Source: a bacterium
GTDB lineage: Bacteria; Hydrothermota; UBA3073; JACQXS01; JAGMCI01
Assembly (NCBI GenBank): GCA_030018315.1
Contig: JASEGA010000019.1
Coordinates: 1-37,166, forward strand
DNA: 37,166 bases
Direction: 5' to 3'
Part shown: one piece after another, positions 5,527 to 36,900 of the stretch
Position numbering within the stretch: position 1 is the stretch's first letter
Layout: each line of letters starts with the position of its first letter
Notes under the pieces: model-generated
Told to the model about the DNA's origin: nothing
Seen by the model: only the letters and a program-made list of their open reading frames with translations
The model's database searches: none
Program-made: the position numbers and the translations under genes

Positions 5527-5560
5527 TTAGTAGGGGTTTGATTAATCAAACCCCTACTAA
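5527..5560. repeat. Palindromic repeat, family A, copy 1 (perfect 34-bp palindrome, intergenic)
   Basis: Half-site TTAGTAGGGGTTTGATT followed by its exact reverse complement. This is the longest perfect copy of the family, which also occurs at 13743, 17284, 22463, 23880 and 24307. Confidence 0.95.
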
Positions 5561-12790: not shown

Positions 12791-15640
12791 ATGGGGTATA
12801 AAGATACTGTTCATTTACCACGTACTGATTTTTCTATGCGTGCCAATTTGCCTAAAAAAGAAATAGATATCTTGGGCTTTTGGGATGAGCTTGATATCTA
12901 CAAAGAGGTACGTAAATCACGTTCCGGTAAAGAGAAGTTCGTCTTACATGATGGCCCACCTTACACGAATGGTCATATCCACCTCGGGCAGGCATTGAAC
13001 AAGATTTTGAAAGATACTATTGTGAAATATAAAGCAATGATGGGTTTTGATACCCCTTGTATACTTGGTTGGGATTGTCATGGTATGCCTATTGAGCATG
13101 AAGTTATAAAGACAGAAGCGAGAAGTGAGAATCGAGAAGCGAAAGACCAGAAGACAGAAGATATAAGGCGTATAGAAATAATCAAAAAATGTCGCCTCTA
13201 TGCAGAAAAGTTTGTACATATCCAGATGGCCGAATTCAAGCGGCTTGGTGTTTTTGGTGATTGGGCTAACCCATACTTAACAATGGATAAGAGCTACGAG
13301 GCAAAGATTATTGAAAACTTTGGTGCTATGTTAGATAAAGGTTATGTTTATAGGGGACTACGTCCAATTTACTGGTGTTTTCACTGTAAGACAGCTCTGT
13401 CAGAACATGAGGTTGAATATGCGGAGTGTAAATCGCCATCAGTATATGTTAAATTTACTGTCAAAGATACTATTGCCGATATCCCATATCAAACAAATTT
13501 TATCATCTGGACAACAACACCATGGACTATACCTGCAAATGTAGGTATAGCAGTAAATCCAAATTATGAGTATAGCTTTGTCCTTATGAATAATGAAGTA
13601 TATGTGGTTGCTAAAGAGTTAGTTGAAAGTATAATGTCAGTAATTGGATTCTTCGAAGGATCCCGTGGAAAAGGTTATAAAATAATAAAAACTGTAAAAG
13701 GCGTAGAGCTTGAAAACTTACATTGTCAACACCCATTAGGAGGTAGGGGTTTGATTAATCAAACCTCTACAGTAGTATTAGCTGATTGGGTAGGTCTTGA
13801 ACAAGGGACTGGTTGTGTCCACATAGCACCGGGACATGGGTATGAAGATTATCAAGTTGGTCTTAAATACAAATTACCTATAATTTCACCTGTTGACGAG
13901 TCAGGTAAGTTCACTGAAGAGGCAGGCGAATTTGCGGGTAAGCAAGTTTTTGATGCTGACCCATATATTTGCAATGTTTTAAGGGATAATGGATTTCTAC
14001 TTTACGAGGGTAAAATTTTACACTCCTACCCCCATTGTTGGAGGTGTCGTAAGCCGTTGATATTTAGGGCTGCATACCAGTGGTTTTTGGCCATTGACCA
14101 CAACAATTTAAGAAATGAATGCCTTGCAGAAATAGAAAATATAAACTGGATTCCTTATTGGAGTAAAGATAGGATTAAAAATATGGTTGAGGAGCGTCCC
14201 GATTGGTGCCTTTCAAGGCAAAGATATTGGGGTGTTCCTATTCCTGCAATTTACTGTAAGAATTGCGACTCCCCTATTTTAGAAAAGGGTATTATTAAGA
14301 GGGCACAAACAATTATCAAAAATGGTGGTGGAGAAGCATGGTTTACTTGTGATATTTCCGACTTAGTCGGCTCCGCTTCTGGCGGAAAAGAATTGACCTG
14401 CCAGCAATGTGGTAAAAAAGAGTTTAGAAAGGGAACAGATATTTTAGATGTATGGTTTGATTCTTCTTGTTCTTACAGTGCTGTTTTGAAGAAGAGCGAT
14501 GACTTAAAGTATCCAGCAGACTTGTATCTTGAGGGTGCAGAACAAGCGAGGGGCTGGTTCCAATTATCTCTTATTGAGAGCCTGATTACTGATAAGAAGG
14601 CGCCTTATAAATCAGTAGTTTCGCATGGTCTTATACTTGATAGTTCGATGAGGAAGATGTCAAAATCGCTCGGTAATGTAATTTCGACAGATAAAATATT
14701 GAAAAAGTATGGTGCTGATATATTAAGATTACAGTTTTTGTCAGTTGATTACACTCAAGATTTCCCATTTAGTGAGGAGTTGTTTCTACCAGTGATAGAT
14801 TCGTATCGTAAAATAAGGAACACTTTTAGATTCTTGCTTGGTAATCTTTATGATTTTAATCCAGAAAATAAAGTATCATATAATAAACTTTTAGAAATTG
14901 ACCAGCTAATTTTACATAGACTCCAAAAACTCATAGAGAGAGTGACTGCTGCTTATGAAGAGTTTACATTTTATAAAGTGTGCTCTCTATTTCATAACTT
15001 CTGTGTAGTTGACCTATCCAAATTTTATCTTGACATCTTAAAAGATAGACTTTATACTTATGGGCTATCATCTATAGAAAGGAGGGCGGCGCAGACAGTT
15101 CTGTATGAAATATTGGATACATTGGTCAGACTTATAGCTCCTATCTTACCATTTACTGCAGAAGAGGTATGGCAATCAAAAATCAAAAATAGAAAGGAAT
15201 GTGAGAAGTCAGTTCATCTATCACTTATGCCTAAGCCAAATGAAGCTTTGCTTAATAATGAGTTATCACTTAAATGGGATGAGCTTAACTCAGTAAGAGA
15301 TGAAGTTTTACTTGCACTTGAACTTGCACGAAAAGACAAATTTATCGGGAATTCGCTTGAAGCAAGTGTAGTTATATGGACACAGGATAAAAGGCTTAGA
15401 GAGCTACTTAAGAAGGAACTACACCAACTACCTAGTATATTTATTGTATCACAGGTGAGTATTTCACAGGTGAAAGGTATGCTTAAAGGCAAGAAAGTAG
15501 ATGTAAAGATACAAAGGGCGGCTGGTAAGAAGTGTGAGCGGTGTTGGATTTTTTCTCAAGAAATAGGTAAAAACATGGATTACCCAACCCTCTGTCCTAA
15601 GTGTATAGGAGTAATAAAAAGGGGTGACTATGGAGGCTAA
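12791..15640 (+). CDS. ileS: Isoleucyl-tRNA synthetase
   Basis: Charges tRNA-Ile. About 949 residues of the bacterial type. Order: class I HIGH region PPYTNGHIHLGQAL (about residue 57), the CP1 editing domain with WTTTPWTIPANVGIAVNP and EQGTGCVHIAPGHGYEDY, DILDVWFDSS, the KMSKS loop (MRKMSKSLG, about 622), anticodon-binding domain, and C-terminal zinc module CERCWIF...CPKC. I start at MGYKDT from family similarity; an alternative ATG at 12779 is repeat-derived. Three probable insertions are tolerated: a word repeat at 13112-13158 (ARSENREAKDQKTED), the family A palindrome at 13743-13770 (GRGLINQTST) inside the editing domain, and paired hairpins at 14357-14385 (SDLVGSASGG). It overlaps the dksA-like gene by 11 bases. 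Confidence 0.97.
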   Translation: MGYKDTVHLPRTDFSMRANLPKKEIDILGFWDELDIYKEVRKSRSGKEKFVLHDGPPYTNGHIHLGQALNKILKDTIVKYKAMMGFDTPCILGWDCHGMPIEHEVIKTEARSENREAKDQKTEDIRRIEIIKKCRLYAEKFVHIQMAEFKRLGVFGDWANPYLTMDKSYEAKIIENFGAMLDKGYVYRGLRPIYWCFHCKTALSEHEVEYAECKSPSVYVKFTVKDTIADIPYQTNFIIWTTTPWTIPANVGIAVNPNYEYSFVLMNNEVYVVAKELVESIMSVIGFFEGSRGKGYKIIKTVKGVELENLHCQHPLGGRGLINQTSTVVLADWVGLEQGTGCVHIAPGHGYEDYQVGLKYKLPIISPVDESGKFTEEAGEFAGKQVFDADPYICNVLRDNGFLLYEGKILHSYPHCWRCRKPLIFRAAYQWFLAIDHNNLRNECLAEIENINWIPYWSKDRIKNMVEERPDWCLSRQRYWGVPIPAIYCKNCDSPILEKGIIKRAQTIIKNGGGEAWFTCDISDLVGSASGGKELTCQQCGKKEFRKGTDILDVWFDSSCSYSAVLKKSDDLKYPADLYLEGAEQARGWFQLSLIESLITDKKAPYKSVVSHGLILDSSMRKMSKSLGNVISTDKILKKYGADILRLQFLSVDYTQDFPFSEELFLPVIDSYRKIRNTFRFLLGNLYDFNPENKVSYNKLLEIDQLILHRLQKLIERVTAAYEEFTFYKVCSLFHNFCVVDLSKFYLDILKDRLYTYGLSSIERRAAQTVLYEILDTLVRLIAPILPFTAEEVWQSKIKNRKECEKSVHLSLMPKPNEALLNNELSLKWDELNSVRDEVLLALELARKDKFIGNSLEASVVIWTQDKRLRELLKKELHQLPSIFIVSQVSISQVKGMLKGKKVDVKIQRAAGKKCERCWIFSQEIGKNMDYPTLCPKCIGVIKRGDYGG
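13743..13770. repeat. Palindromic repeat, family A, copy 2, in frame in ileS
   Basis: GTAGGGGTTTGATT then AATCAAACCTCTAC; one mismatch (CCTC for CCCC). Encodes GRGLINQTST at IleRS residues about 318-327 in the editing domain, just before VVLADWVGLEQGTG. Confidence 0.95.
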
Positions 15641-16427: not shown

Positions 16428-18092
16428 ATGGTAATGCGTAAATTAAGAAAAAAGATGACGGTATTTCTATGGTTTGCTGCGACTGCATTCATATTATTTT
16501 TATTCCTTGAGTGGGGAATGCGATTTAGCTCGTCAAAGAGATTGAGCCCGAGAGAGAGGGGTATAATTGGTGTAGTTAACGGTAAGCTACTATCTTACAG
16601 TGCTTATTCAAGCCTCATTGGAGTACATAGGGAACGTGGGATTGCACCGTATGAGGCAGAAAAGATTGCATTTAATGTGCTTGTTGAAGAGGCACTACTT
16701 GACGAGGTATTTGAACGTATGAAACTTAAACTTACAGATGAAGAGGTGGTCGAAATTATAAGAAATAATCCACCACCTGAATTATTAAAAGATACTTCAC
16801 TACAAACAGATGGCAGATTTGATTATGCCAAATATCATTCCATTATAGCCAGTCCAGCTAATCTTGGATGGGTTAAGTCATACCAGGCATTGATAAAGAC
16901 ACAGCTACCAAGACAGCTAGTGTATCAGAATATAGTGGCTACTGTTAGACCTACTACAATTGACTTATCTGAGGCATACTTACATGAAAATGTGAGCCTT
17001 AAGCTTGAATATGTGGTCATTGAGCCAAGAGGTGCGACCTCAAGTAAATTAGAAGTTAAGCCAGATGAGGTAAGAGAATATTACGAAAAACATAAAGAGG
17101 AGTTCAGAGTTCCGGAAAAGCCTTTGATACATTATGTATATTTTCAAGTCTTACCTACTATTGATGACGAATCTTATATAAAAGAGGAGGCTGACGAAAT
17201 ATTTGACCGCGCCAAGCAAGGGGTTCCTCTTGATACCCTTGCAATAGAATACAATTGTAAAATAACAGTTGCTGAAAATACAGGTAGGGGTTTGATTAAT
17301 CAAACCCCTACTGGTGCTCCAGTGAAGAGAGCCGATGGATATCACATTATTCAAGGGGATAAAGAGTTAGTCCTCCCAATACGACCGTCTGACGAAACTA
17401 TTGCAAAAGTAGAAGAGATGGCAACTAATTTTGTAGAGGCAGCTCGAGGTCGTACCTCTAAGGCTGGATTTGATGATGCAGTTGTAGATTATGGATTAAA
17501 AGTTGAAAAGAGTTACGGTGAAATAGGGGAACTCGACCTTTCTTACATAGACTTTAAGAAACCGAATAAAATTATAGGTCCAATTGAGGGCAATAATTGC
17601 TTCTATGTATTAAAGACTATGGGAACCGAGCCTTCCCGGGTACCAGATTTATCTGAAGTAGAACCTATTGTACATGAGAAATACTTAATGGAGCGAGCCA
17701 TTACTTTTGCTAAAGAGTTGCTCCATGTCATTCTGAGCGAATCGAAGAATCTATCCAAAGAAGATGAGTTCAAAAAAGCTATGTCTCAAAATGGACTGCA
17801 AGTCAAAACTACAGGCTTAATAAAACTCGAAAATTCACCCGAAGGCACCGATTTCTTCATTCAAGCTTTAAATATTCAGAAGGACAAAGTTGGTATTGTG
17901 GTGACTGACAAAGATGTGTACCTCGTCCATTGTTTGGATAGGGTTGAGCCATCGCAGGAGCAAATCAATAAGGAGTTACCAGAATTTGCTGGTAAATGGA
18001 TGAATGAGGAAGGTAAAAAAGTCTACACTGATTGGCTTAATAACTTAAAGACGACCGCAAACATCAAAGACTATAGATACGAAATACATTAG
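16428..18092 (+). CDS. ppiD: PpiD/SurA-like periplasmic peptidyl-prolyl isomerase
   Basis: 554 residues. A basic start and one membrane anchor (MTVFLWFAATAFILFLFLEW), then the SurA_N/PpiD helical region (VNGKLLSYSAYSSLIG; TDEEVVEIIRNNPP; LQTDGRFDYAKYHSI), typical chaperone features of PpiD, and parvulin-like segments (LEVKPDEVREYYEKHKEEFR, RADGYHIIQ). It probably helps folding of exported proteins at the outer face of the inner membrane. It is crowded with probable insertions: a family A palindrome at 17284-17311 (GRGLINQTPT, before the parvulin core), a family C copy at 17727-17752 (HVILSESKNLS), and two mini-palindromes (17029-17041, 17446-17458). Last gene of the upp operon. Confidence 0.85.
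   Translation: MVMRKLRKKMTVFLWFAATAFILFLFLEWGMRFSSSKRLSPRERGIIGVVNGKLLSYSAYSSLIGVHRERGIAPYEAEKIAFNVLVEEALLDEVFERMKLKLTDEEVVEIIRNNPPPELLKDTSLQTDGRFDYAKYHSIIASPANLGWVKSYQALIKTQLPRQLVYQNIVATVRPTTIDLSEAYLHENVSLKLEYVVIEPRGATSSKLEVKPDEVREYYEKHKEEFRVPEKPLIHYVYFQVLPTIDDESYIKEEADEIFDRAKQGVPLDTLAIEYNCKITVAENTGRGLINQTPTGAPVKRADGYHIIQGDKELVLPIRPSDETIAKVEEMATNFVEAARGRTSKAGFDDAVVDYGLKVEKSYGEIGELDLSYIDFKKPNKIIGPIEGNNCFYVLKTMGTEPSRVPDLSEVEPIVHEKYLMERAITFAKELLHVILSESKNLSKEDEFKKAMSQNGLQVKTTGLIKLENSPEGTDFFIQALNIQKDKVGIVVTDKDVYLVHCLDRVEPSQEQINKELPEFAGKWMNEEGKKVYTDWLNNLKTTANIKDYRYEIH
17029..17041. repeat. Mini-palindrome, family D (GAGGTGCGACCTC), in ppiD
   Basis: Five-base arms GAGGT/ACCTC around three bases; read as RGATS. 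Other copies: 17446-17458, 22603-22615, 24521-24533, 26686-26698. Confidence 0.65.
17284..17311. repeat. Palindromic repeat, family A, copy 3, in frame in ppiD
   Basis: Perfect 28-bp palindrome, half-site GTAGGGGTTTGATT. Encodes GRGLINQTPT at residues about 286-295. Confidence 0.97.
17446..17458. repeat. Mini-palindrome, family D (GAGGTCGTACCTC), in ppiD
   Basis: Same arms as 17029-17041; read as RGRTS in the same frame relative to the element. Confidence 0.6.
17727..17752. repeat. Repeat, family C, in frame in ppiD
   Basis: GTCATTCTGAGCGAATCGAA then GAATCT; encodes VILSESKNL. Same outer ends as 3223-3257, 11443-11468 and 25700-25725. Confidence 0.85.
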
Positions 18093-18231: not shown

Positions 18232-21200
18232 TTTATTTCTTATCATATATTGGTGGGCTTGATGCATGAAGGCTTCAAGTCTTGTATATGCTGTTGATTG
18301 CTCAAGCCCATCGTATGCCATATTTAAATATGGGATACCATATTGTTCTTTTACAGTTGCCATAACAGCAGCTGTATTTGTGCCGGGCATACATGTAAAT
18401 GGCATCACAGTTATTATACCGGATGCGCCTTTAAGGATGAACTCTATACACTTACCTACTGATAGGACTGCCTCACCTTCAACTGTTTGGTGTAAATAAG
18501 GGTTACTGTAGCGGAATAATGTCTCAATGTTAGGTTCTTCAAAATTTAAATTGTATTTCTTATCCCGATAAGGTTGGGACAGGAATCTTTTTTGTAGCCT
18601 GTGTTCAGCCCAGTGTAGATATTTACCTGTAACCCAATATGTAATTAGCTCCTTATAATTTTTATTTACAACACTATCTTCTTTTCTTCTAAAGTTGACA
18701 TAGAAAAACCATTCAGCAGTTGATGCCTGCCACACTTCACCGCCCAATTCTTCTATAGTTCTAACCAGATTATCATTTGAAAAATGATGCGACCTCACAT
18801 ATATCTCACCTGTAACCCCTATCACAGGTTTAGTCCCGATAGAATCGGAATTAATAGGTACAGATTCAAATTCTCTCCTTATAGCTGGCATTACTTTGTT
18901 TACATCTCTACCGGCTTCAATTTGTTTACATATGAGGTCAAGGCATTTAAAATAAACTCTATCTGTCTCCCCCTTATTAATCTCATACGGTCTTGTCTTT
19001 CTTACAAGTTTATCAATTACGTCAACTGCACATACACCTGCCCATGCTATTTTGTCAAAATTTAGTCCATACTCTTTTAAAGTTTCATAAAATTTAGACG
19101 CCTGATTTGGTGATACTATAGGGACATTATCGTAACCCATTTCAGAAAGTATAATTCTTTGTAGTTTATTATATTGGCCAAATCTACAAGGACCGCAAGA
19201 TTCGGGCATAAAGAATGCTATACTTTTAGGGTTAAAGTTTAAGTCAGCTAAAACCTTTACCATATCTCCTGTTGTTAATATACATGGAAAACATTCCTTA
19301 CCTGTAGTGTATTTTCTTCCAAGTTCAAGTGACCGCTCATCTGCGATTGGTATAACTTCTGCATTTATTTTACAATGTCTAAATGCGGCAGCAACAGCAT
19401 ATGAGTGATAGCCCATAAATGGGATAAGTAAAGTCCTACCATTGTAGTCAGTTCGGTGAGTTTTAAATATTTGCACAGCTGGCTCAGTCCTGACACTTGT
19501 TGGTACATTCTCTATTGAATCTAAAAAGGCTTCGCACCTCGTTATAACACCAGCAGGTGCAGAGTGTTCGTCTACCTCTATAACTAAGTAAGGCTTTTTG
19601 CCCATCTCTTTACTGAAGTATTTTAAGATAAATGAATCTGGACCGCAGCCAAAATTTGTTATATATAAAGGATAGAGGTTTGGCTTTTGCTTTATTATCC
19701 GGAGTGCAGATAAAATTTGTTGCCCATATCTCCAATACATATTTGGCCAATCATTTCCTATATCTATTGCCTCTATGGATAAAAAGTCCATAGGAATAGC
19801 AAGCACGCCTAGGTCGCCTAATATTTTGGGTATATTAAGGTTTAAGCCTGTATCACAGGTATTGTATGGCCTACCAACTATCACAATAGCAAGTTCTTCA
19901 AGTGAGTCAATTATATCTTTTCCCATTAATTTTATAGCCTTGTAAAACTCACTTTGTGCCTCATCTGCCTTATTAAGTGCGTGAATAACAGCAGACTTAC
20001 CTTTACCTAATTTATTACCAACTTTAGTCATAACTTCTTCAATATGCTTCTTCCCTCTCTTCAGGTATAAGATAGGTTTAATTAGCTTTATTTCTTTAGC
20101 CTCTGGATTAAGTGCTGCATCTATCACATAAGGGATAGCCTGCTCAAATGGGCAAGTATAACTTTCCTGTATTTTATGGTCTTCTTTTTGCATGGATATT
20201 ATAGATGGTATAAATATATAATCTACTTTTTTCTCAATTAAATTCAATATATGACCGTGACATGCCTTAACTGGAAAACAATGCTCAGATGTCACAACTT
20301 CAACTCCATCATGTACAATCTTTCTATTTGTTGCATTAGATAAAATAACCTTACACCCGAGTTCCTGAAAAAATGTTACCCAAAATGGCAAATATTCATG
20401 AAATATGAGCGACATCGGAATACCAATTACTGGTTGTGAATCGTGAGCCGTGTGTTGTGGGTTATAAGATTTAAGAAGGAGTTCATTCCGAATATCAAAT
20501 AAATCAACTTTTAACTTTTTACTTTTAACTTTTAACTTCTTTTCGTACCTCTCACACCTCGACCCATAGTATAATGGCTCCTCGCCTTCAAGCATAACCT
20601 TTTTTATCTCACATGAATTCGGACATTTGTCGCATTCAAAACTCTCAACATTATATCTCTTTTTGCACAAATCAAATCCTTTGAACTTACTTATTATTCT
20701 GTCTCCTGACTCCTGTATTCTGTCTTTCATACGCTCCATAGCAATTATAGCAACCCCTATTGCACCAGTCACATCATTATGAGGCGGCACTGTTACAGGC
20801 TTATTCAAGACAGACTCAAAAGCAGCCACTACCCCTTTATTATGGGCAACTGCACCCTGGAAGAATATATTATCGCCAATTGGTTTATTGCCTACAACTT
20901 TATTTAAGTAGTTATATACAATAGAATACGAAAGCCCGGCTGCCAAGTCTTCACGGTTTGCCCCTTTTTGTTGCCATGCAGTCAAATCAGATTGCATAAA
21001 TACAGTGCAGCGCTCACCAAGTCTAATTGGCGATTTACTATCAAGTGCACACTTACCAAATTCATCCTTTATATTCAAGTTAAGTCGCTCTGCCTGCTCT
21101 TCAAGGAAAGAGCCAGTCCCTGCAGCACACACTTTGTTCATCTCAAAATCCAAAATAGTCCCATTCTGCAGTGATATATATTTTGAATCTTGTCCCCCTA

Positions 21201-22554
21201 TCTCAAATATTGTATCAACTGTAGGGTCTACTTCAATTGAAGCCCTTGCCTGAGCTGTTATCTCATTCTTGACAACATCTGCACCTACAAGGTCGCCTAT
21301 CATATATCTACCAGACCCAGTAGTCCCAACTCCCTTAACTTCTACTCTGTTACCAACTTCTTCTCCTATTTCCTTAAGTCCACGTAGGACAGCATCTATT
21401 GGCCTGCCAGCAGTCCACAAGTAGCGACGAGCAATAATATTCTTGTTCTCATCTACAAGCACTACATTTGTTGAAATTGAGCCCACATCTATACCAAGCC
21501 ATACAGGGAGGGGTGTATTGCTATCCCGACCCGTCACGGTTCGGGACGGGTACGCCCCTACATCTGATAGTACTGTAGACTGTAGCCAGTGATGGGCTAT
21601 AACCTTTGGACGTACTTCCTTAAGAGGAGGCAATCCTTTATGCTCTTCTTTACGGTTGGCTAAAAATTCAGGTATTTTTTCAATTTCTAATTTCCAATTT
21701 CTAATTTCCAATTTTGCATTTTTGATTTGATTTAATGCGCACCCTATAGCACCCATAGATGCAAAATAAGTTGGTATAATAAGGTCACCATCTTTTCCAT
21801 AGGATACTTCAGATAGTTCAAATGTCTCTTTAAATGCTCTCACCATCCCTTTATTTGCAGCTACACCCCCTTGAAATGAGACGGGCTTTGTAACTTTTTT
21901 CCCTTTTGCAATAACACTCTTAAAGTTCCTTGCCAGTGCAAAACATAGACCTGCAACTATATCATTAACTGGGGTAGCTTCTTGCTGTAAGTGTATCATA
22001 TCCGTATTTGCAAACACACTACACCTGCCAGCTATTCTTGGTGGATGTATAGATGTGAGTGCAAGTTTACTAAATTCATCAATCCCAATCCCAATCCTTG
22101 CTGCCTGCTGGTCTAAAAATGAGCCAGTCCCAGCAGCACAGATTGTGTTCATAGCAAAGTCCTTTATTACATGCATACCAAGATTCTTATCATATTCTAT
22201 AAGTATAAGTTTTGAATCCTCGCCCCCTATTTCAATGATTGATTTTACTTGTGGATAGAGTGTGCCAGTTGAGATTGTATGGGCAAGTATTTCGTTAACA
22301 AATGGAATATTTAGTATCTTAGACAGAAGTTTACCACCCCTTCCTGTAGCAGACATACCAGCAAATTCTGACTCATGGTAGCTATTGAATACAAGCTTAA
22401 GAGTGTCATAAGTCCTTTTTAGTGGCTCACCCTCTATCCTTACATACCAGTCTTTTAGTACAGTAGGGGTTTGATTAATCAAACCCCTACTGTCCAGAAC
22501 TGCCACATTTATTGAAACTGACCCTATGTCTATACCTATGTATAAATCTCTCAT
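18226..22554 (-). CDS. Giant acyl-CoA dehydratase (2-hydroxyglutaryl-CoA type) activase
   Basis: About 1442 residues with two ASKHA ATPase domains and a C-terminal DUF2229/CoA-activase region. First domain: GIDIGSVSINVAV, EIGGEDSKLI, CAAGTGSFLDQQAARI (bridging-Cys loop of the [4Fe-4S] activator); second: GIDVGSISTNVVLVDE, EIGGQDSKYI, CAAGTGSFLEEQAERL. Then CDKCPNSCEI and GSRCERYEKK, and ECFPC and CGPCRFGQY Cys motifs. Such activases drive ATP-dependent electron injection into 2-hydroxyacyl-CoA dehydratases or relatives; no dehydratase is nearby, so the partner is unknown. The start at 22554 is set by homology; the 13 residues upstream are repeat-derived. Probable insertions: family A (22463-22490), a GC-rich repeat (21520-21559), and word repeats at 20506-20541, 20699-20731 and 21681-21720, mostly in linkers. 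Confidence 0.9.
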   Translation of the reverse strand: MRDLYIGIDIGSVSINVAVLDSRGLINQTPTVLKDWYVRIEGEPLKRTYDTLKLVFNSYHESEFAGMSATGRGGKLLSKILNIPFVNEILAHTISTGTLYPQVKSIIEIGGEDSKLILIEYDKNLGMHVIKDFAMNTICAAGTGSFLDQQAARIGIGIDEFSKLALTSIHPPRIAGRCSVFANTDMIHLQQEATPVNDIVAGLCFALARNFKSVIAKGKKVTKPVSFQGGVAANKGMVRAFKETFELSEVSYGKDGDLIIPTYFASMGAIGCALNQIKNAKLEIRNWKLEIEKIPEFLANRKEEHKGLPPLKEVRPKVIAHHWLQSTVLSDVGAYPSRTVTGRDSNTPLPVWLGIDVGSISTNVVLVDENKNIIARRYLWTAGRPIDAVLRGLKEIGEEVGNRVEVKGVGTTGSGRYMIGDLVGADVVKNEITAQARASIEVDPTVDTIFEIGGQDSKYISLQNGTILDFEMNKVCAAGTGSFLEEQAERLNLNIKDEFGKCALDSKSPIRLGERCTVFMQSDLTAWQQKGANREDLAAGLSYSIVYNYLNKVVGNKPIGDNIFFQGAVAHNKGVVAAFESVLNKPVTVPPHNDVTGAIGVAIIAMERMKDRIQESGDRIISKFKGFDLCKKRYNVESFECDKCPNSCEIKKVMLEGEEPLYYGSRCERYEKKLKVKSKKLKVDLFDIRNELLLKSYNPQHTAHDSQPVIGIPMSLIFHEYLPFWVTFFQELGCKVILSNATNRKIVHDGVEVVTSEHCFPVKACHGHILNLIEKKVDYIFIPSIISMQKEDHKIQESYTCPFEQAIPYVIDAALNPEAKEIKLIKPILYLKRGKKHIEEVMTKVGNKLGKGKSAVIHALNKADEAQSEFYKAIKLMGKDIIDSLEELAIVIVGRPYNTCDTGLNLNIPKILGDLGVLAIPMDFLSIEAIDIGNDWPNMYWRYGQQILSALRIIKQKPNLYPLYITNFGCGPDSFILKYFSKEMGKKPYLVIEVDEHSAPAGVITRCEAFLDSIENVPTSVRTEPAVQIFKTHRTDYNGRTLLIPFMGYHSYAVAAAFRHCKINAEVIPIADERSLELGRKYTTGKECFPCILTTGDMVKVLADLNFNPKSIAFFMPESCGPCRFGQYNKLQRIILSEMGYDNVPIVSPNQASKFYETLKEYGLNFDKIAWAGVCAVDVIDKLVRKTRPYEINKGETDRVYFKCLDLICKQIEAGRDVNKVMPAIRREFESVPINSDSIGTKPVIGVTGEIYVRSHHFSNDNLVRTIEELGGEVWQASTAEWFFYVNFRRKEDSVVNKNYKELITYWVTGKYLHWAEHRLQKRFLSQPYRDKKYNLNFEEPNIETLFRYSNPYLHQTVEGEAVLSVGKCIEFILKGASGIITVMPFTCMPGTNTAAVMATVKEQYGIPYLNMAYDGLEQSTAYTRLEAFMHQAHQYMIRNKS
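21520..21559. repeat. GC-rich repeat, family F, in frame in the activase linker
   Basis: TATCCCGACCCGTCACGGTT, CGGGACGGGTACGCCCCTAC. CCCGACCCGT pairs imperfectly with ACGGTTCGGG/ACGGGT. Encodes VGAYPSRTVTGRDS. The GTAGGGGC end is shared with 26030-26059 (ychF). Confidence 0.65.
22463..22490. repeat. Palindromic repeat, family A, copy 4, in frame in the activase
   Basis: Perfect; dyad symmetry extends to 22461-22492 (32 bp). Read from the minus strand it again gives SRGLINQTPT, at residues about 22-31, between the first beta strand (SVSINVAVLD) and LKDWYVRIEG. Confidence 0.97.
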
Positions 22555-23795
22555 CTTGAGATTGCTTCGTCCCGACAGGGTCGGTCCCTGCAATGACAGT
22601 TTGAGGTGCCACCTCTTTTCTTCTCAGCTATCTCGTAATAAAACTGCTCTATTTTTCTTGTCACCTTATCCCACGAATATCTAAGTGCTGCCTCCCTCCC
22701 CTCTTTTGCTAATCGTGTCCTGAGTTCATTGTTCTTGAATATTCCTATTATAGCATCTGCAATAGACTTAGGATTTTTAGGTTCAACTAATATTCCATTT
22801 AAGCCATTAGTTATGACTTCCCTATATCCTGGTATATTAGTAGCAACTACTGGCTTTCCTGAAGCCATTGCCTCAAGTAGGACTATACCAAAACTTTCCA
22901 TCCCTATTGCAGGTGAACAAAAAACATCACACGACGTATAATATCGGGGTAAAATCTCTGGTGATATAAACCCTTCAAAATAAATATTTTTGATTTTTGC
23001 ATTTTGATTTTTGATTTTACTTAACCATCCTTTGCCTACGACAATGAGCTTGGAATCGTGAAACTCTTGGCGTACTATCTGGAACGCCTGAATCAGATAT
23101 TTTAATCCTTTTCTTGGCTCAAATCTGCCAATAAATAGAATATTATGCCCGGCTTCAGATGATACCTGTCTGAATTTTTCAAGTCCATCAACCTCAGGAG
23201 AAAACCTTTTGGTATCTACCCCATTAGGAATGATTGTGTACGGTATTTGTATGCCTGCCTGGCGGTAAGACAGGTATCTTTGCATAGTAGTGAGAGCTAC
23301 ACGAGATACTGCAATTGCAGCATCTATTTTCCTTATATAGGGCTGTATTATATATGTAAAATATTTATACAATTTTAGGTCAGGTGCATGAGCATGAAAT
23401 GTCAGAATATTTATTGCACTTGAACACCTGAGTGCTATAAGTGGTAAAGAAGGGCTAGGCCCATGCATATGAATTATGTCAAAGCTACCCGATGAGTTTA
23501 GCACTTTTTTAACCTTTTCATTTAGTCTAAACCCAATAGGGATAACACCGACTGACCTATTTGTCGGATATGGGATTGCTATGCCAAGTCTAATTACATC
23601 TTCAGGTGATACCTGTTTATCTCTACTATCTATCTCATAGGTTTCGTAGTCCCGCCATAGGTATGTCTTGTAAGATGTTGTCAATATCTTAACTTCATGC
23701 CCCATCTTCATAAGCTCGTGAGAAGTATGGTATACATGCTCTGAGACCCCACCCGGGTATGGATAATATAAGTCAGACACAATACAAATTTTCAT
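22551..23795 (-). CDS. GT4-family glycosyltransferase
   Basis: 414 residues, GT-B fold. N-terminal domain: ICIVSDLYYPYPGGVSEHVY (nucleotide-sugar transferase start), DIIHMHGPSPSLPL. C-terminal domain: IPNGVDTKRFSPE, ILFIGRFEPRKGLKYLIQAF, and SPAIGMESFGIVLLEAMASG with the EX7E motif. It resembles phosphatidylinositol mannosyltransferase-like and sugar transferases; acceptor unknown. ATG at 23795 or GTG at 23801 is the start; a TATAGT box at 23813-23808 suggests a near-leaderless transcript. Repeat-derived parts: RYLSYRQAG (23252-23275), SKIKNQNAKIKN (22986-23018), and the C-terminal tail KRGGTSNCHCRDRPCRDEAI, which is a repeat that reaches exactly the ATGA overlap with the activase. Confidence 0.9.
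   Translation of the reverse strand: MKICIVSDLYYPYPGGVSEHVYHTSHELMKMGHEVKILTTSYKTYLWRDYETYEIDSRDKQVSPEDVIRLGIAIPYPTNRSVGVIPIGFRLNEKVKKVLNSSGSFDIIHMHGPSPSLPLIALRCSSAINILTFHAHAPDLKLYKYFTYIIQPYIRKIDAAIAVSRVALTTMQRYLSYRQAGIQIPYTIIPNGVDTKRFSPEVDGLEKFRQVSSEAGHNILFIGRFEPRKGLKYLIQAFQIVRQEFHDSKLIVVGKGWLSKIKNQNAKIKNIYFEGFISPEILPRYYTSCDVFCSPAIGMESFGIVLLEAMASGKPVVATNIPGYREVITNGLNGILVEPKNPKSIADAIIGIFKNNELRTRLAKEGREAALRYSWDKVTRKIEQFYYEIAEKKRGGTSNCHCRDRPCRDEAISR
22559..22597. repeat. Repeat, family E, forming the end of the glycosyltransferase
   Basis: AGATTGCTTCGTCCCGACAG, GGTCGGTCCCTGCAATGAC: family E ends around GTCCCGACAGGGTCGGTCCC dyad. The mini-palindrome GAGGTGCCACCTC (family D) is next to it at 22603-22615. 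Confidence 0.8.
23252..23275. repeat. Repeat, family G (CCTGCCTG...AGACAGG), in the glycosyltransferase
   Basis: Minus strand reads TACCTGTCTTACCGCCAGGC then AGGCA, coding YLSYRQAG. The Lon gene copy (29445-29468) codes YLPDNRQAG and the PilW copy (7754-7775) is similar. Confidence 0.65.
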
Positions 23796-23879: not shown

Positions 23880-23903
23880 GTAGGGGTTTGATTTATCAAA
23901 CCC
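23880..23903. repeat. Palindromic repeat, family A, copy 5, degenerate, intergenic
   Basis: GTAGGGGTTTGATTTATCAA then ACCC. One base changed at the centre and the right arm shortened. Only ten bases before the TonB-receptor-like start, so it would shape that mRNA leader. Confidence 0.9.
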
Positions 23904-23912
23904 AAATTAGAG

Positions 23913-25076
23913 ATGCTCATCCTACTATTATTAAGTTTAGAAACTCCTTTTAGGTATCCTAAAATGTTAATCACTACCCCATCCAATGCTTACTCTTTAT
24001 CCTTTGCAATTGATACACCTACTGAACTCTTCATCTCTTATCCATTTATAGAGGTAAGGAATGACTCTGTTTATTTCAGGGGTTCTTCTAATGTCTTACT
24101 TCTAAAAGATGGTGTACCAATCTCTTCTCTTAATGATGTGTGTTTCACATCAATTGAAAGAATTGAACTTCTTTGTGAGGATGCGAGTTCTACTTATGGA
24201 GATTGTGATGCAGTCATCAATATCATAACAAAAAGGGGTAAAGGAGGACAGCCTTACTCAAGTATTAAGCTTATTAAAAATCCAAACCATATCCAATTTG
24301 AATTATGTAAGGGTTTGATTAATCAAACCCCTACATTAGACTTCTACTTAGCGGGTGATTTGAATTCGGGCTCCAAATTTAGTGGTAATATTGGACATAA
24401 GTCAAGATGGACAAATCTTAGGCTCTACTTAGATAAAGATTTCTTAATCAAAGGCTCGGTGAACAACTTGAGGTTTTCGCTGAAACGCAACTTTTGGAGT
24501 ATAACCCAAAAATTCAATTTGAGGTCTCACCTCTTGAGTGGACACGAACTCCTATTAGGTGCCGAGAAGGATATAGGCGTATTTATCCAAGACTACTGGG
24601 AGCTACGTCCTCTTGTGTATGTTGTCCCAAGTCTTAGGTATAATCATGTAATAAGTAGAATCTATCCTAAAATTGCAATTGGCTGGATTCCAAAGTTTAA
24701 TATGATTATTTTTGGTAGCTTAACTCAAACTCAATCAAATCTTGGAATTAGGTGGCTGGAGTCAAGCATCAACCTGTTTAAAAACGATGAAAATAATGGC
24801 ATAGAAATAAGGCTTGTAAGCCCATGGATATACAATTTTAGATTTATAGGAGCAGCTAGCTTGCTTCACCTTGCAAATCAAGGCTGGGGCGATGAATTGG
24901 CAATTTTTGGCGAGTACAAAAAGGAGTTTAGGAATGGAGACATTGGAATATACATACTCGGCGACTTGGCAAGTGAGACTATACGAGCTGAACTAAAAAT
25001 ATTAGACGCAAAAATATTTTATAAACTAAAATCTACGGAACCATCCTACGGCTTATTCTGGGAATTCTGGGACTAG
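23913..25076 (+). CDS. Short TonB-dependent-receptor-like outer-membrane protein
   Basis: 387 residues. A brief hydrophobic start (MLILLLLSLETPF) then a plug-like domain: VLLLKDGVPISSLNDVCFTS, IERIELLCEDASSTYGDCDA, VINIITKRG, which follows the plug pattern (V-x-V-D-G-x-P, I-E-R-I-E-V-x-x-G-x-x-S-x-x-Y-G, I-N-I-I-T). The remainder is alternating aromatic strands (RLYLDKDFLI, FSLKRNFWSI, AIGWIPKFNMII) ending in Trp-Asp after FWEF, as a beta barrel would. It is about half the usual receptor length, has no TonB box that I see, and so is either a reduced transporter or a plug-barrel protein of other use. A family A palindrome lies in frame at residues about 132-141 (CKGLINQTPT). The Shine-Dalgarno site is weak (TTAGAG). 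Confidence 0.7.
   Translation: MLILLLLSLETPFRYPKMLITTPSNAYSLSFAIDTPTELFISYPFIEVRNDSVYFRGSSNVLLLKDGVPISSLNDVCFTSIERIELLCEDASSTYGDCDAVINIITKRGKGGQPYSSIKLIKNPNHIQFELCKGLINQTPTLDFYLAGDLNSGSKFSGNIGHKSRWTNLRLYLDKDFLIKGSVNNLRFSLKRNFWSITQKFNLRSHLLSGHELLLGAEKDIGVFIQDYWELRPLVYVVPSLRYNHVISRIYPKIAIGWIPKFNMIIFGSLTQTQSNLGIRWLESSINLFKNDENNGIEIRLVSPWIYNFRFIGAASLLHLANQGWGDELAIFGEYKKEFRNGDIGIYILGDLASETIRAELKILDAKIFYKLKSTEPSYGLFWEFWD
24307..24334. repeat. Palindromic repeat, family A, copy 6, in frame
   Basis: GTAAGGGTTTGATT then AATCAAACCCCTAC; one mismatch. Encodes CKGLINQTPT in the first barrel strand region of the TonB-receptor-like protein. Confidence 0.95.
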
Positions 25077-31125: not shown

Positions 31126-31991
31126 TTATCTCATTATAATTATCTGCTTAGTAAGAATAGTTTTATCCACTTTTAGCTTACAAAAATAAATGCCACTTGG
31201 TAATTTATTTCCATTATCATCACTACCAACCCAAGTAACATCTCCACAGGATCCTTCGGAGTTAACCGTAAATCGTAAATCGTTAATCGCAAAAGATTTA
31301 ACTAATCTACCAGTGAGGTCGTGAATCGTTAATCGTGAATCGTTAATCGTATAATCGTTCCGTTTAACGAATAACGAATAACGGTCTTTTCACTAAATGG
31401 ATTAGGATAGACTTCAAGCCTCTTGTCTTGCTTCCATCTTGGTAAACTCTTAACTTCTTCAATTCCAACATTTGTGTTGCGAAAAAGGACATCCGGTGCG
31501 TTATCAACACCAACTGCTAAGTCTAAGCTAATTGAATAAGTGTAGTAAATTAGTATATTATCTGTCCCACTTTGTGGTGCATTTCTTAAAGATATCCAGC
31601 CAGCATTCCGGTCATAACAATAGCTTTTTCCCCCTACTATTGAACCATCCACTTTAATTGAATCGATTGAGTGCGCTGGGTAGCGTGTAATATAAAATAG
31701 CTTCATTACACCATTGCCACTTAGTGTATCCACCTTATTTTTTATTCCAGCACAATCAACATCTGCCCAAGCTATACTCATACTCATCCCGTAATAGCCT
31801 GAAGCCCATGAAGGTGTAGTCTCTAAAGTGCCACCAAGATTTTGGTAAACAGTAGTTGACCCAATCTCATTTGATGCACCCAAATCCATGTAGCCATCAC
31901 CGTCTACATCTGCAAATGCTATATCCCATGTGAGGCTTTGATAACTCGATTTCCAAGAAGGTGTCTGCTCAAGTTTGCCATTATGACTCAT
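31126..31991 (-). pseudogene. FG-GAP repeat protein, C-terminal part, broken by a TA tract and a 14-bp duplication
   Basis: Continues the protein of 31988-32821 in another frame. It opens MSHNGKLEQTPSWKSSYQSL and has FG-GAP units (IAFADVDGDGYMDLGASNEI) and a sorting-domain start LEVYPNPFSEKTVIRYSLNG, then stops (TAA at 31331-31329). The lost end is intact in the next frame: IHDLTGRLVKSF...SGIYFCKLKVDKTILTKQ, to TAA at 31128-31126. The stop lies in an exact tandem duplication of GTGAATCGTTAATC (31321-31334, 31335-31348); taking one copy out restores the frame through the whole sorting domain. As it stands the product lacks a complete sorting domain. Start at 31991 overlaps the previous stop (ATGA), so reinitiation is possible. 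Confidence 0.78.
31321..31348. repeat. 14-bp exact tandem duplication in the FG-GAP gene sorting domain
   Basis: GTGAATCGTTAATC twice, back to back; length not a multiple of three. The surroundings (31261-31290 and 31349-31384) are made of the same words (CGTTAATCG, CGTAAATCG, AACGAATAACG), which favours slippage. Confidence 0.95.
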
Positions 31992-32821
31992 ATATATATA
32001 GCAACAACACCCAAAGAATCCCCGTATCCAGTATTTCCTATGCCAAGGTCAAGCCAGCCATCATTGTTTACATCACAAAAAGCCATACCCTCTGGAGTGC
32101 AATAATACCATTCCTCTGATAGCCACGAGGCAGCTGTCTCAAGAATAGTGTCCTGATTAAAATATACACGAACCGTAGCCCCAACACTCGTACGACCAAC
32201 AGCAAGGTCAAGTTTGCCATCATTATCTACATCACCCCATGCACATGAGCTGGTATTCACAAGATCAGTAGCTTGCCAAGATGGTCTTGTCTCTAGTACA
32301 CCTTTCAAGTTAAGATAGACATTCGGAGAGTAAAACCAATCAGTTGTTGCAAGGTCAAGCCAGCCATCGCCATTCATATCACCAAAACTTATATCCATAC
32401 CACCACCCATTTCTGATGTCCAAGAGGGGGTAGTCTCAAGCTCGCCATTATTGTTCATATAGAGACGAACTCTCCCTCCCCCAATGGCAGCGTAGGCAAC
32501 TGCAAGGTCTTGGTAGCCGTCATTATTTACATCACCCCACGCTAAAGCCACATTACTCACAGTTGCTGCTACCCATGATGCAGTAGTCTCAAGTTGCCCC
32601 CCTATGTTCCTATACACACGGTCAGGACCAATCTCAACAGAAACTGCAAGTTCTGGATAACCATCGTTATTCATATCTCCAAATCCTATCTCCCAGTCAT
32701 CCCAGTCGCTCTCAGTTGACATCCAACAAGGTGTATCCTCAAGTGGAATATCAGCACTCGCATTAGAGGCAACAAGAAGTGCTATAGCCACAAAATATAT
32801 AATTAAGTTTGACTTAAACAT
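31988..32821 (-). CDS. Exported FG-GAP/VCBS repeat protein, N-terminal part
   Basis: 277 residues with signal peptide MFKSNLIIYFVAIALLVASNASA and five FG-GAP type repeats, each with a calcium-binding-like D-x-(N/D)-x-D-G loop followed by (Y/W/K)-x-(D/E)-L-A (DMNNDGYPELAV, DVNNDGYQDLAV, DMNGDGWLDLAT, DVDNDGKLDLAV, DVNNDGWLDLGI) and spaced by LETTPSW-type linkers. The frame ends in GVVAIYI within a TATATATATA tract (31991-32000), and the next repeat follows in a shifted frame (31991 leftwards). Removing one TA unit fuses both. GGGAGGATGG precedes the ATG. A surface or secreted protein, function unknown. Confidence 0.85.
   Translation of the reverse strand: MFKSNLIIYFVAIALLVASNASADIPLEDTPCWMSTESDWDDWEIGFGDMNNDGYPELAVSVEIGPDRVYRNIGGQLETTASWVAATVSNVALAWGDVNNDGYQDLAVAYAAIGGGRVRLYMNNNGELETTPSWTSEMGGGMDISFGDMNGDGWLDLATTDWFYSPNVYLNLKGVLETRPSWQATDLVNTSSCAWGDVDNDGKLDLAVGRTSVGATVRVYFNQDTILETAASWLSEEWYYCTPEGMAFCDVNNDGWLDLGIGNTGYGDSLGVVAIYI
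31991..32000. repeat. (TA)5 dinucleotide tract at the frame break of the FG-GAP gene
   Basis: TATATATATA preceded by A. Contraction by one TA or expansion by two puts the two halves in one frame. Confidence 0.9.
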
Positions 32822-32964: not shown

Positions 32965-35900
32965 CTACTTTAAAAATACTAACTTCATTATCTTATTAAA
33001 CTCTTTGCTCTCAAACTTATAAAAGTAGACTCCAGATGAAACTCTCCTACCACTACTATCTTTACCATCCCAAATAGCTCTATAATAGCCTGGTTTATGT
33101 ATCCTATCTACAAGTGTACAAATAAGTCTACCTGTGATGTCATATACTTTAAGAGAGACCCTGCTTTTAACTGGCACCTCATAATTGATACTTGTTAGAT
33201 GTGCAAATGGATTAGGAGTATTTTGATACATTACAAGAGAGTTAGGCACTTTAGTTAATATCTCATCTACCCCAGGCTGAGTAGGTGGCCATGGGTAAAA
33301 GCCTTCCACTTTGGATATACTTCCCTTTCCACATAATGTGAGTACCCAATAGTCGCCTGTAACTTTGTCATACTCTACACCTGTTCCTCTTTTAAGTGGC
33401 CCCCTAAATGAATGACCGGATACCAGATTGCCATCTCTTGTAATCTCATAAACTACACAGGAGTCACACCCTTGTTGAGTAGCAAATGTCATCATAAGGA
33501 GCAAATTTTGGCTGTTCTGCTCAAATGCAAGTTCCATTGCTCCATATACCTGAGGTTGTGGAACTGGGACAGTAAAACTCGATAAAACATTACCATTAGC
33601 AGTATCTATTTTAAATATCTTGTGCGCTCCCCAATGACATGTCCACAAATACTCACCATCAAAAGTAAGCCCATTACTACCTCTTGCTAGGAATGATTTT
33701 ATTATAGTCCCGGTAGTGTCAATTTTATAAATTTTACCAGTCTTCTCATTATTTACCCATAAGAAACCGCTATCATAGGTTATACCTATACAATCGTAAC
33801 CTCCGGGTGCAGGTATTGTTTTTATCACACTGCCATTTATAGGATTTACTGCATAGATGAGGGAAGGAATCGCAACAGTCACCCATAACTTCTCACCATC
33901 TGATGCTATCCCATAAGACCAATCACCGGGAGCATAAAATCCATACATAACATCACCGGGAGCCACTGGCTTAATATAGAAGCTATCTATCCAGTCATGT
34001 GTAGATGTGTCTATATCAGATATTGTTAAATATAAATTCACCAAGTGATGGTTTGGGCAGTTTCTATCAAGCCTGAAAACAAAATTGTCAAAAGCAGTTA
34101 CTGTATCTAAATGAGATATATCACCAAAGTAGCTTTCAGAATCAATTATTGCCACAAAAGTATCGTAGGTAAATAGAACCGCATTCACATTATATGCGTC
34201 TATATCACCCCAATTCCCTAAAACCGTTATAAGTTCAATTGTTTCACCGCGTTCTAAAAATTTATCACCATCACCTTGACTTTGACCAAACATATCATCA
34301 TCTATTGAGTAGGAATGCAATTTTAAAATAGGCGTGACTACAGGAATAGAAAAATGCCACACCCATTCACTATTATTTTTATCACTTATTACAAGTTCAA
34401 ATGCAATATTATAGCAATTGGGAGTACTTAATGCGACATTCAACCCGAACTCACCTGTCTTGTATGAATCAGGCGCAACATCACCACAATCTTCAGTTGA
34501 ATCCACAATAGTAATATATTGGTCAGCTGTTCTCAACACAGCTTCAACCTGATAAGCTGTATCTACTCCGACATTGTGTATAGTTACTTGTAACTTTATA
34601 GGTTCACCCGGTTGGACTGTGCCATTATTATTACCAGAACTATCGTTTACTTCATAATGGTCGTAAACCACACAGGCACCACTTGGCACTACAACATTAA
34701 CTACACCTTCATAAGGTATAAAATTATGTTTTGTAACTGTCACCCACATAGTACCGGGAGAAATAAGTGGGCTGGGTAAGTTAAATACCACATCTCCAGT
34801 TGCATCAGTATAATCTCGCATATAAAGTTCACCTTCTTTAAATATACACACATACGCACTATCAACACCTACTCCGTTAGCTGTGACTTCAACTTTGAAG
34901 TTTGTCTCTTCTGTTGTTATTATAGTATCATATAGAGCAAATAAGCTCTCTGGCTCAGCACTCCACATAGGCAGTTCTGGGTCACCAAATAGAGTAAGCT
35001 CATAGAGACACCAAGGCCACACATCCCAGTCTTCCCATGTAATTCCTGAAATATAACGGCTTTTTGACATAGCATTAGTCACTCCTATACGCTCATGGTA
35101 TTGGTAATTATTACAAAAAAACTCGTGATAAAAGGTTGTATCAATAGCATCTGAGAAAGCTATGTGTGCATCTTCGCCCCACCCATATCTTGTGTTTGCA
35201 ATTATAGCTACTGCACCTCCGCTGTTGTTATTAACAAAATGCTCCGCAAAACAGTCGCCTCCCGGAACTTCATCAACTGCACCACAGTAACAAGCTACTC
35301 CGGTAAGGACTATTGTAAGCTTATCACCGTTTATAAGATTGTCAACATTATCTGAGTTCAAGATTACAGTCCCATCTGCGTATGATAAACGGTTTGTCCA
35401 CCCATGAGAAGCTGAGTTCATAAATCCAAATCCAGAATTTAATGAATCCACAAGTGCTGCTGTAGATAAGTTGCCCAGCGACTCATATAATTTTGAGTCC
35501 TGCCAATCAATTGGGTCAATTCTTGCAATGGCATTGTTTACTGTATCACCCCAGTAATTATACATTGGGAATAGCTTAACTGCTGGGAGTAGAATCTTCT
35601 TAAGATAACCGAAAGGTGGGCTTTTCTCATATGTAATAACCTTATTTACAAATGTAGTTGCTTGGACTGAATCATAAACTGGTGCACGTCCAACGAACAC
35701 ATCTGGATAAAAATCAACTCCATCAGTAGATTCACCCCATATACCGTCATCGTCTGCATTCCATGTGCCGTCTAAGTCTGAGAAATACAGGTCGCTCGGG
35801 ATAGTATCCTCACCAGGATAATAATCATCAGGATAATCCCAGTACCATACATCCCTTCTTGGTATTACTTCTTGTCCATTTTCAAAGTCACATTGACCAC

Positions 35901-36771
35901 CAAGTAGAACCCAAGTTGTACCCCAATTTGAGTTTGCATCTTTAATAAAGTTTCGTATTCTCTCAGCGTCATCTATGCCCGTGTAATTTGCGTATATGAA
36001 CTCACGTGTCACTACTTTAGCAGGTACACCTTTCTTTGTTTTCCAATCAGCAAGTGGCTGAAATGCAGAACCAAATGAGCCAGCTGTTATTATCACATAT
36101 TCAACTGTATCTGGAGGAAGTACCTTTGAATTACATACCATTTCTATATCAGGAGCCCATATCTCAACTGCTTCAGGATTTATTACCATTGACTTAACCA
36201 TAGGGTTAAACAACTTTTTCTGTTCCGACGTGATAGTGGGTATAGCATACACTCCTTCTTTGTAGGTAACTCGAAGTTCAACCCTTGAGTTAAAAATAAG
36301 TTCACCTTTAACTGGAATGTATTGAAGCGGGTAAACAAAAATACCAATAATTCTATAGCCTCCCATATTACCAGTGTGTCCATAGTCAATTAATTCAGTA
36401 GGAAAATATCCTGCTCCGGAATAAACTTTTGCATCAGGTTCTACCCATTTTACTTTTTCTCTAAATGAAAACGGATAAGGAGGTTGTGCCGGGCAGATTT
36501 GATATTTTCCTGGTATAACTTTACTCTCTTTAGATATTACTTCAACTTTCACAATACTTGCACCCGGCGGGATAAGGCAGGATATAACTTTTACAGGAAG
36601 CATAGGAGAGCCCAGCTTACGAGTAAAGTTACATCCATTAAGTCCAACTATATCGTATCCTTTAAGTTTTCTAAAATTAAGGTCACTTGTCTTAAACCTA
36701 ACCGTCTGCTGTATTTCACCAGCCAATAAATAAGCTGGAAGTAACAGCAAAATTAAAAAATTATACCTCAT
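32965..36771 (-). CDS. Exported C25 (gingipain-type) cysteine peptidase with sorting domain
   Basis: About 1268 residues. ATG 36771 with GGAGGTG upstream gives signal peptide MRYNFLILLLLPAYLLAG. The gingipain N-terminal propeptide-like region (GLNGCNFTRKLGSPMLPVKV) leads into the catalytic part: YVIITAGSFGSAFQPLADWK, DLYFSDLDGTWNADDDG, YPDVFVGRAPV, His456 in NSASHGW, Cys494 in VLTGVACYCGAVD, and CFAEHFVNNNSGGAVAII. After it come CARDB/Ig-like domains (NNGTVQPGEPIKLQVTIHNV), a WD/NHL-like propeller segment (GLTFDGEYLWTCHWGAHKIF), and the C-terminal sorting domain YQNTPNPFAHLTSINYEVP, SLKVYDITGRLICTLV, SSGVYFYKFES. It is likely cell-surface or secreted, digesting external protein. Catalytic His and Cys are both present; no repeat insertion seen. 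Proteolytic specificity unknown. Confidence 0.9.
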   Translation of the reverse strand: MRYNFLILLLLPAYLLAGEIQQTVRFKTSDLNFRKLKGYDIVGLNGCNFTRKLGSPMLPVKVISCLIPPGASIVKVEVISKESKVIPGKYQICPAQPPYPFSFREKVKWVEPDAKVYSGAGYFPTELIDYGHTGNMGGYRIIGIFVYPLQYIPVKGELIFNSRVELRVTYKEGVYAIPTITSEQKKLFNPMVKSMVINPEAVEIWAPDIEMVCNSKVLPPDTVEYVIITAGSFGSAFQPLADWKTKKGVPAKVVTREFIYANYTGIDDAERIRNFIKDANSNWGTTWVLLGGQCDFENGQEVIPRRDVWYWDYPDDYYPGEDTIPSDLYFSDLDGTWNADDDGIWGESTDGVDFYPDVFVGRAPVYDSVQATTFVNKVITYEKSPPFGYLKKILLPAVKLFPMYNYWGDTVNNAIARIDPIDWQDSKLYESLGNLSTAALVDSLNSGFGFMNSASHGWTNRLSYADGTVILNSDNVDNLINGDKLTIVLTGVACYCGAVDEVPGGDCFAEHFVNNNSGGAVAIIANTRYGWGEDAHIAFSDAIDTTFYHEFFCNNYQYHERIGVTNAMSKSRYISGITWEDWDVWPWCLYELTLFGDPELPMWSAEPESLFALYDTIITTEETNFKVEVTANGVGVDSAYVCIFKEGELYMRDYTDATGDVVFNLPSPLISPGTMWVTVTKHNFIPYEGVVNVVVPSGACVVYDHYEVNDSSGNNNGTVQPGEPIKLQVTIHNVGVDTAYQVEAVLRTADQYITIVDSTEDCGDVAPDSYKTGEFGLNVALSTPNCYNIAFELVISDKNNSEWVWHFSIPVVTPILKLHSYSIDDDMFGQSQGDGDKFLERGETIELITVLGNWGDIDAYNVNAVLFTYDTFVAIIDSESYFGDISHLDTVTAFDNFVFRLDRNCPNHHLVNLYLTISDIDTSTHDWIDSFYIKPVAPGDVMYGFYAPGDWSYGIASDGEKLWVTVAIPSLIYAVNPINGSVIKTIPAPGGYDCIGITYDSGFLWVNNEKTGKIYKIDTTGTIIKSFLARGSNGLTFDGEYLWTCHWGAHKIFKIDTANGNVLSSFTVPVPQPQVYGAMELAFEQNSQNLLLMMTFATQQGCDSCVVYEITRDGNLVSGHSFRGPLKRGTGVEYDKVTGDYWVLTLCGKGSISKVEGFYPWPPTQPGVDEILTKVPNSLVMYQNTPNPFAHLTSINYEVPVKSRVSLKVYDITGRLICTLVDRIHKPGYYRAIWDGKDSSGRRVSSGVYFYKFESKEFNKIMKLVFLK

Positions 36772-36794
36772 ATTGCACCTCCATCCTTCGTAAA

Positions 36795-36900
36795 TCAAAA
36801 ATCAAATTTCAAATATCAAAATTACATATCAAAATGCAAAATTGACAACGAAGTTGTCACATTGGAGCGCCATTTTTAATTTTTGATATTTGATATCTCA
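36795..36900. repeat. Nested inverted repeat upstream of the C25 peptidase
   Basis: AATTTCAAATATCAAAAT at the left mirrors ATTTTTGATATTTGATATC at the right. Inside, TTGACAACGAAGTTGTCA is an 18-bp near-palindrome next to CATTGGAGCGCC, which resembles family B. It lies between the upstream gene end (36928) and the C25 start, and would form a long hairpin in RNA. Confidence 0.6.

Follow-up and report, generated by a model that had tools for sequence, protein, structure and literature searches.

The minus strand of the window (the whole 37,166-bp stretch of DNA that was analysed) encodes, from position 32821 down to 31126, a secreted-looking FG-GAP/VCBS protein with a C-terminal T9SS sorting domain, in three pieces. 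The first open piece (31988-32821, minus strand; 277 amino acids) begins with a hydrophobic N-terminus that, judged by eye, resembles a Sec signal, and continues into FG-GAP/VCBS repeats (FG-GAP_3, E = 6.5e-35). The body frame breaks at a TA tract (TATATATATAT; 31990-32000, minus strand), and a second open piece (31329-31991, minus strand; 220 amino acids) carries the remaining FG-GAP body, the linker and strands s1-s2 of the sorting domain before stopping at a TAA (31331-31329) that lies within a heptamer array. Strands s1-s2 (LEVYPNPFSEKTVIRYSLNG; 31359-31418, minus strand; local profile positions 1-27) are in the same frame as the body, whereas strands s3-s7 (31126-31356, minus strand) are in another frame, which runs for 87 codons without a stop up to the TAA at 31128-31126; the strand names s1-s7 were assigned by motif analogy with RgpB (PMC4804311) and not from a structural model. 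The s3-s7 region matches TIGR04183 (E = 6.7e-08) as well as FlgD_ig and Por_Secre_tail, its frame scoring 32.4 bits against TIGR04183, above the curated cut-off of 23 bits, with the s1-s2 half in the other frame. By sequence profile the sorting domain also matches the PorU and RgpB chains. Instead of closing a single continuous frame, the sorting domain is thus split at the array, and the gene has two disabling frame breaks set against paralogous sorting domains that are open. It is probably a broken cargo gene. At 31988-31991 (ATGA) the TGA of the first piece overlaps the ATG of the second, so that translational coupling could restart translation there, although the second piece would have no signal peptide. 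The neighbouring gene (32965-36798) encodes a C25-family (gingipain/PorU-like) peptidase whose own sorting domain is intact.

At the site where the sorting domain is split, GTGAATCGTTAATC stands twice, head to tail (31321-31334 and 31335-31348). This exact 14-bp tandem pair (31321-31348, minus strand), two heptamers per copy, was described in the earlier note and is real: about 0.0003 exact 14-bp tandem pairs would be expected in a window of such composition, which rules out a chance repeat as its origin. The pair is, moreover, part of a longer heptanucleotide array (31319-31359, minus strand), which is made of ACGATTN units and one 8-mer and encodes the s2-s3 loop together with the first part of s3. 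Tandem Repeats Finder describes this array as period 7 with 5.7 copies or alternatively as period 14 with 2.9 copies; the real repeat unit is 7 bp, reading ACGATTN on the coding strand. A second heptamer array (GCGATTAACGATTTACGATTTACGG; 31264-31293, minus strand) codes the s4-s5 loop, a short one (CGTTATTCGTTATTCGTTA; 31365-31383, minus strand) codes strand s2, and a dispersed mini-repeat, CCGAAGGATCCTGTGG, lies in frame within the s4-s5 loop (31244-31259, minus strand). As 14 leaves a remainder of 2 on division by three, losing one 14-bp copy would mechanically join both frames, just as the earlier note had it. That one-copy removal rejoins the frames is nonetheless arithmetic and not history, as comparison with paralogues indicates.

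We examined one by one the 128 sorting-domain profile matches of the host genome (1.95 Mb in 74 contigs). Four paralogous domains carry the same-sized array in frame (C37:12764, C14:6629, C44:6263 and C45:3494, by contig and position), with the 14-bp pair exact in C37:12764 (two copies of ACGATTAACGATTT) and matching at 13 of 14 positions in each of the other three. In C37:12764, C14:6629 and C44:6263 the array consists of a GATTAYACG unit followed by four heptamers, and the frame is unbroken from s2 (VIRYS) across the array to LTIYDL.GR. C45:3494, which was found via its array, likewise keeps four heptamers behind the GATTAYACG unit; it is almost identical to the studied gene across the array (AAACGGAACGATTATACGATTAACGATTCACGA-TAACGATTCACGA) and is in frame from s2 to s3, breaking later, in the next loop. 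On the evidence of the four paralogues that read a same-sized pair in frame, we rejected the pair as the lesion. The earlier note took the duplication to be recent or reversible and to be the event that killed the sorting domain; this comparison supports neither a recent origin nor the killing role, and by it the pair is an old, inherited array, neither a lesion nor recent.

The frame was most likely lost instead at 31353-31361 (minus strand), where the studied gene (GGAACGATT) shows a net length change relative to intact paralogues. Its alignment with C37:12764 has few mismatches over 89 bp and a single 7-bp gap, and its alignment with C45:3494 has near identity through the array and a single 43-bp gap, the paralogue being the longer sequence in both cases. 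Both gaps sit just upstream of the 14-bp pair and, as 7 and 43 each leave a remainder of 1 on division by three, either accounts for the loss of frame. The polarity of this length change rests on paralogues and not on orthologues: no orthologue of the studied gene was found in the only other genome of its family, which belongs to a different genus, and no close orthologue was found elsewhere, the best match outside the host genome having 43% identity. A more complex history, with a larger loss followed by a gain of 14 bp, is possible, given that C37:9106 has a shorter array from which the GATTAYACG unit is absent. When the studied gene was examined for relaxed constraint after the lesion, changes were few and their codon positions flat; the third-position share (5 of 14) falls inside the range of more distant intact domains. 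A Tyr-to-His change that might have been taken as a sign of decay is also present in C45 and was dropped. A recent change, or a reversible one, would likewise be consistent with the downstream frame being intact.

To survey frame breaks, we searched all three frames around each sorting domain. Five domains have their halves in different frames (the studied gene on C19, C4:3634, C29:19415, C17:26943 and C54:2120), in addition to the C45 domain. The domain at C4:3634-3765, which follows a 1380-amino acid cargo frame, is broken inside a TTTCCAA array, its halves scoring ~40 bits each in different frames, and that at C29:19415-19588 loses its frame in a TA-rich tract at the IYN motif, much as the body of the studied gene does at its TA tract. 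The C45 break lies in loop 2, beside a palindromic insert; those of C17 and C54 fall outside arrays. Several further sorting domains are orphans, with no long frame ahead of them. Cargo genes, then, break often in this genome, for several reasons of which heptamer arrays are one.

Short dispersed repeats were also observed. The palindrome GGGGTTTGATTAATCAAACCCC occurs in the window at 5533-5554, 13746-13767, 17287-17308, 22466-22487, 23883-23904 and 24310-24331 and, with up to three mismatches, at 40 places in the genome (0 for a control pattern); several times it lies within genes and in loop 1 of sorting domains, translated in frame (GLGRGLINQTPT). The mini-repeat CCGAAGGATCCTGTGG is present in the window not only at 31244-31259 but also at 13653-13668, and a longer relative of it is found in loop 1 of C44 and C45. 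Counted across the genome by match to CCGAAGGATCNNGTGG, this mini-repeat is present at 18 places without mismatch and at 30 with at most one.

More interesting than the pair itself is the way in which seven-base repeats cluster in T9SS sorting domains, in their linkers and loops. Exact period-7 runs (of at least 10 matches) numbered 16 in an unbiased genome sample of 400 kb, compared with 0-5 for periods 4-6 and 8-13, and the harmonics 14 and 21 were likewise raised. Within the sorting domains we counted 18 period-7 runs, against 0.85 after synonymous codon resampling and 0-4 runs at periods 4-6 and 8-13. Per 10 kb, period-7 runs number 10.9 in linkers (the 90 bp before the domain), a figure that includes two runs coding s2 (in the studied gene and C44:6263) where the profile matches start late, 6.2 in sorting domains, 1.5 downstream of them and 0.25 in coding sequence 120-450 bp upstream; the corresponding value for the 400-kb sample is 0.6. 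Relative to the genome at large, the linkers of the 128 T9SS cargo genes are therefore enriched ~18-fold and their sorting domains ~10-fold. The arrays, built from many unrelated 7-mers (ACGATTN, AGATTAC, TTACCAA, TTTCCAA, CTCAATT, CAGTTAC), encode strand s2 itself and the two loops s2-s3 and s4-s5. The conserved peptide T-I-Y-D, written as ACG ATT TAC GAT, is the start of an ACGATTT repeat, and this motif may seed arrays. The host genome has the T9SS machinery, including the channel: SprA/Sov scores above its cut-off, and PorV-like proteins score below theirs. Period-7 arrays are also seen in housekeeping-type genes of the window, namely those for IleRS and for the acyl-CoA dehydratase activase and its neighbour (13109-13161, 20506-20538, 21677-21714 and 22986-23018), where they are apparently read in frame.

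ACGATTN arrays occur in many phyla. In genomes of the same phylum, 6 of the ~22 loci examined fall within sorting domains and on the same strand; the others are elsewhere. In three relatives, little period-7 signal was seen in the 30 best-scoring sorting domains, a sample in which high scores favour domains with short loops. A literature search for any connection between T9SS sorting domains and either heptamer repeats or phase variation found no paper.

Taken together, these comparisons suggest that the 14-bp pair represents two turns of an old (ACGATTN)n array coding the s2-s3 loop of a T9SS type A sorting domain. Arrays of this kind would arise and change length via replication slippage or unequal recombination, and would accumulate in the linker and inter-strand loops, where extra residues are presumably tolerated; in the RgpB structure, the parts equivalent to the arrays are loops of a seven-strand beta-sandwich (PMC4804311). 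Selection would retain copies whose total length is a multiple of three, for example through mixed 7- and 8-bp units. In the studied gene, s3-s7 would have been shifted out of frame by a net change in length immediately ahead of the pair. With the second break at the TA tract, what is left is most likely a pseudogene whose truncated product would lack the C-terminal export signal. In P. gingivalis this signal resides in the final 22 residues of the domain (s6-s7; PMC4804311), and by this analogy the truncated form should not be exported by the T9SS. We put the probability of this whole account (an old array, an upstream length change and a broken cargo gene) at about two in three. The earlier note's interpretation is supported in part: the gene codes for a secreted FG-GAP protein whose T9SS sorting domain has lost its frame at a slippage-prone array, and a second break falls at a TA tract.

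The earlier note further proposed two independent switches in this gene, one for the body and one for the anchor, the latter turned off by slippage through a recent or reversible 14-bp duplication. Such phase variation is compatible with an exact pair that has open frames on its downstream side in both registers and with the TA tract of the body; surface proteins are common targets of the process, and in H. influenzae one hmw1a gene carries (AATTTTG)14 within its open reading frame, with a shift of frame (PMC2651432). The TA tract and the frame break at it stand. The reading of the duplication as a switch is not supported. Its copy number is far below that of the hmw1A/hmw2A heptamer tracts of Haemophilus influenzae, which have 13-38 copies, are mostly in the promoter and have been shown to vary (PMC2651432, PMC8262952). 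Where a contingency locus would hold many uniform copies, the array here is short and interrupted, with 5.7 heptamers at 85% match or two exact 14-mers; four paralogues read the same-sized pair in frame; and both presumed switches are off simultaneously. Of the array-bearing domains in the genome, only about two lose their frame within an array. We consider a phase-variable anchor unlikely, and regard as slightly less likely still the broader idea that the heptamer arrays of sorting-domain linkers and loops are genome-wide contingency sites, at which 7-bp steps would choose, cell by cell, which of the ~128 cargo proteins reach the surface.

A broken frame could also come from an error in the assembly or the consensus, and in a draft of 74 contigs, with several domains broken and with ~30 bp adjoining the break common to two paralogues, such an error deserves consideration. 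However, homologous frames lie on both sides within ~60 bp, so that paralogues joined in assembly would not by themselves give a shift; a net change of 7 bp is atypical of base-calling; and long housekeeping genes in the window (IleRS, Lon and the acyl-CoA dehydratase activase) are open. We judge an artefact to be about as improbable as a phase-variable anchor. The overlap of the two frames across the array would, finally, allow the full domain to be made still, through programmed frameshifting there, but by eye we saw no slippery heptamer at the overlap, the paralogues need no such event, and the break at the TA tract would call for a second one, making this by far the least credible explanation. 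A cargo gene broken by a length change beside an old array remains our preferred reading.

An excess of heptameric repeats is known from bacteria, mostly in intergenic DNA; in this genome such repeats are concentrated within the T9SS export signal of a cargo family of ~128 members. Repeat dynamics at the DNA level can thus shape, and break, a secretion signal. Annotators should bear in mind that a short cargo protein or an orphan sorting domain may in some cases represent a broken gene. Should the arrays prove variable within populations, they would constitute a new kind of surface-display switch.

With known T9SS type A sorting domains (TIGR04183/PF18962; the RgpB CTD, 5HFS and 5AG8; PorU, 6ZA2), the domain described here shares the motifs PNPF, I-Y-D-x-x-G-R, W-D-G and S-G-I-Y-F, but differs from them in the 7-bp repeats and mini-repeats of two inter-strand loops and the linker, and in being split between frames. 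The translation of short dispersed repeats in frame, in tolerant loops, recalls the Rickettsia palindromic elements, small palindromes read in frame within genes, the likeness being one of kind. As at hmw1A/hmw2A, 7-bp tandem units are found at genes for surface proteins; unlike those tracts, the arrays here are coding, short and interrupted. A genome-wide excess of heptameric repeats, mostly intergenic and G-rich, has been described in Xanthomonas, Nostoc and similar bacteria (PMC4692102). The excess reported here resembles it in that period 7 is favoured over neighbouring periods, and differs from it in being concentrated in the coding sequence of one domain type.
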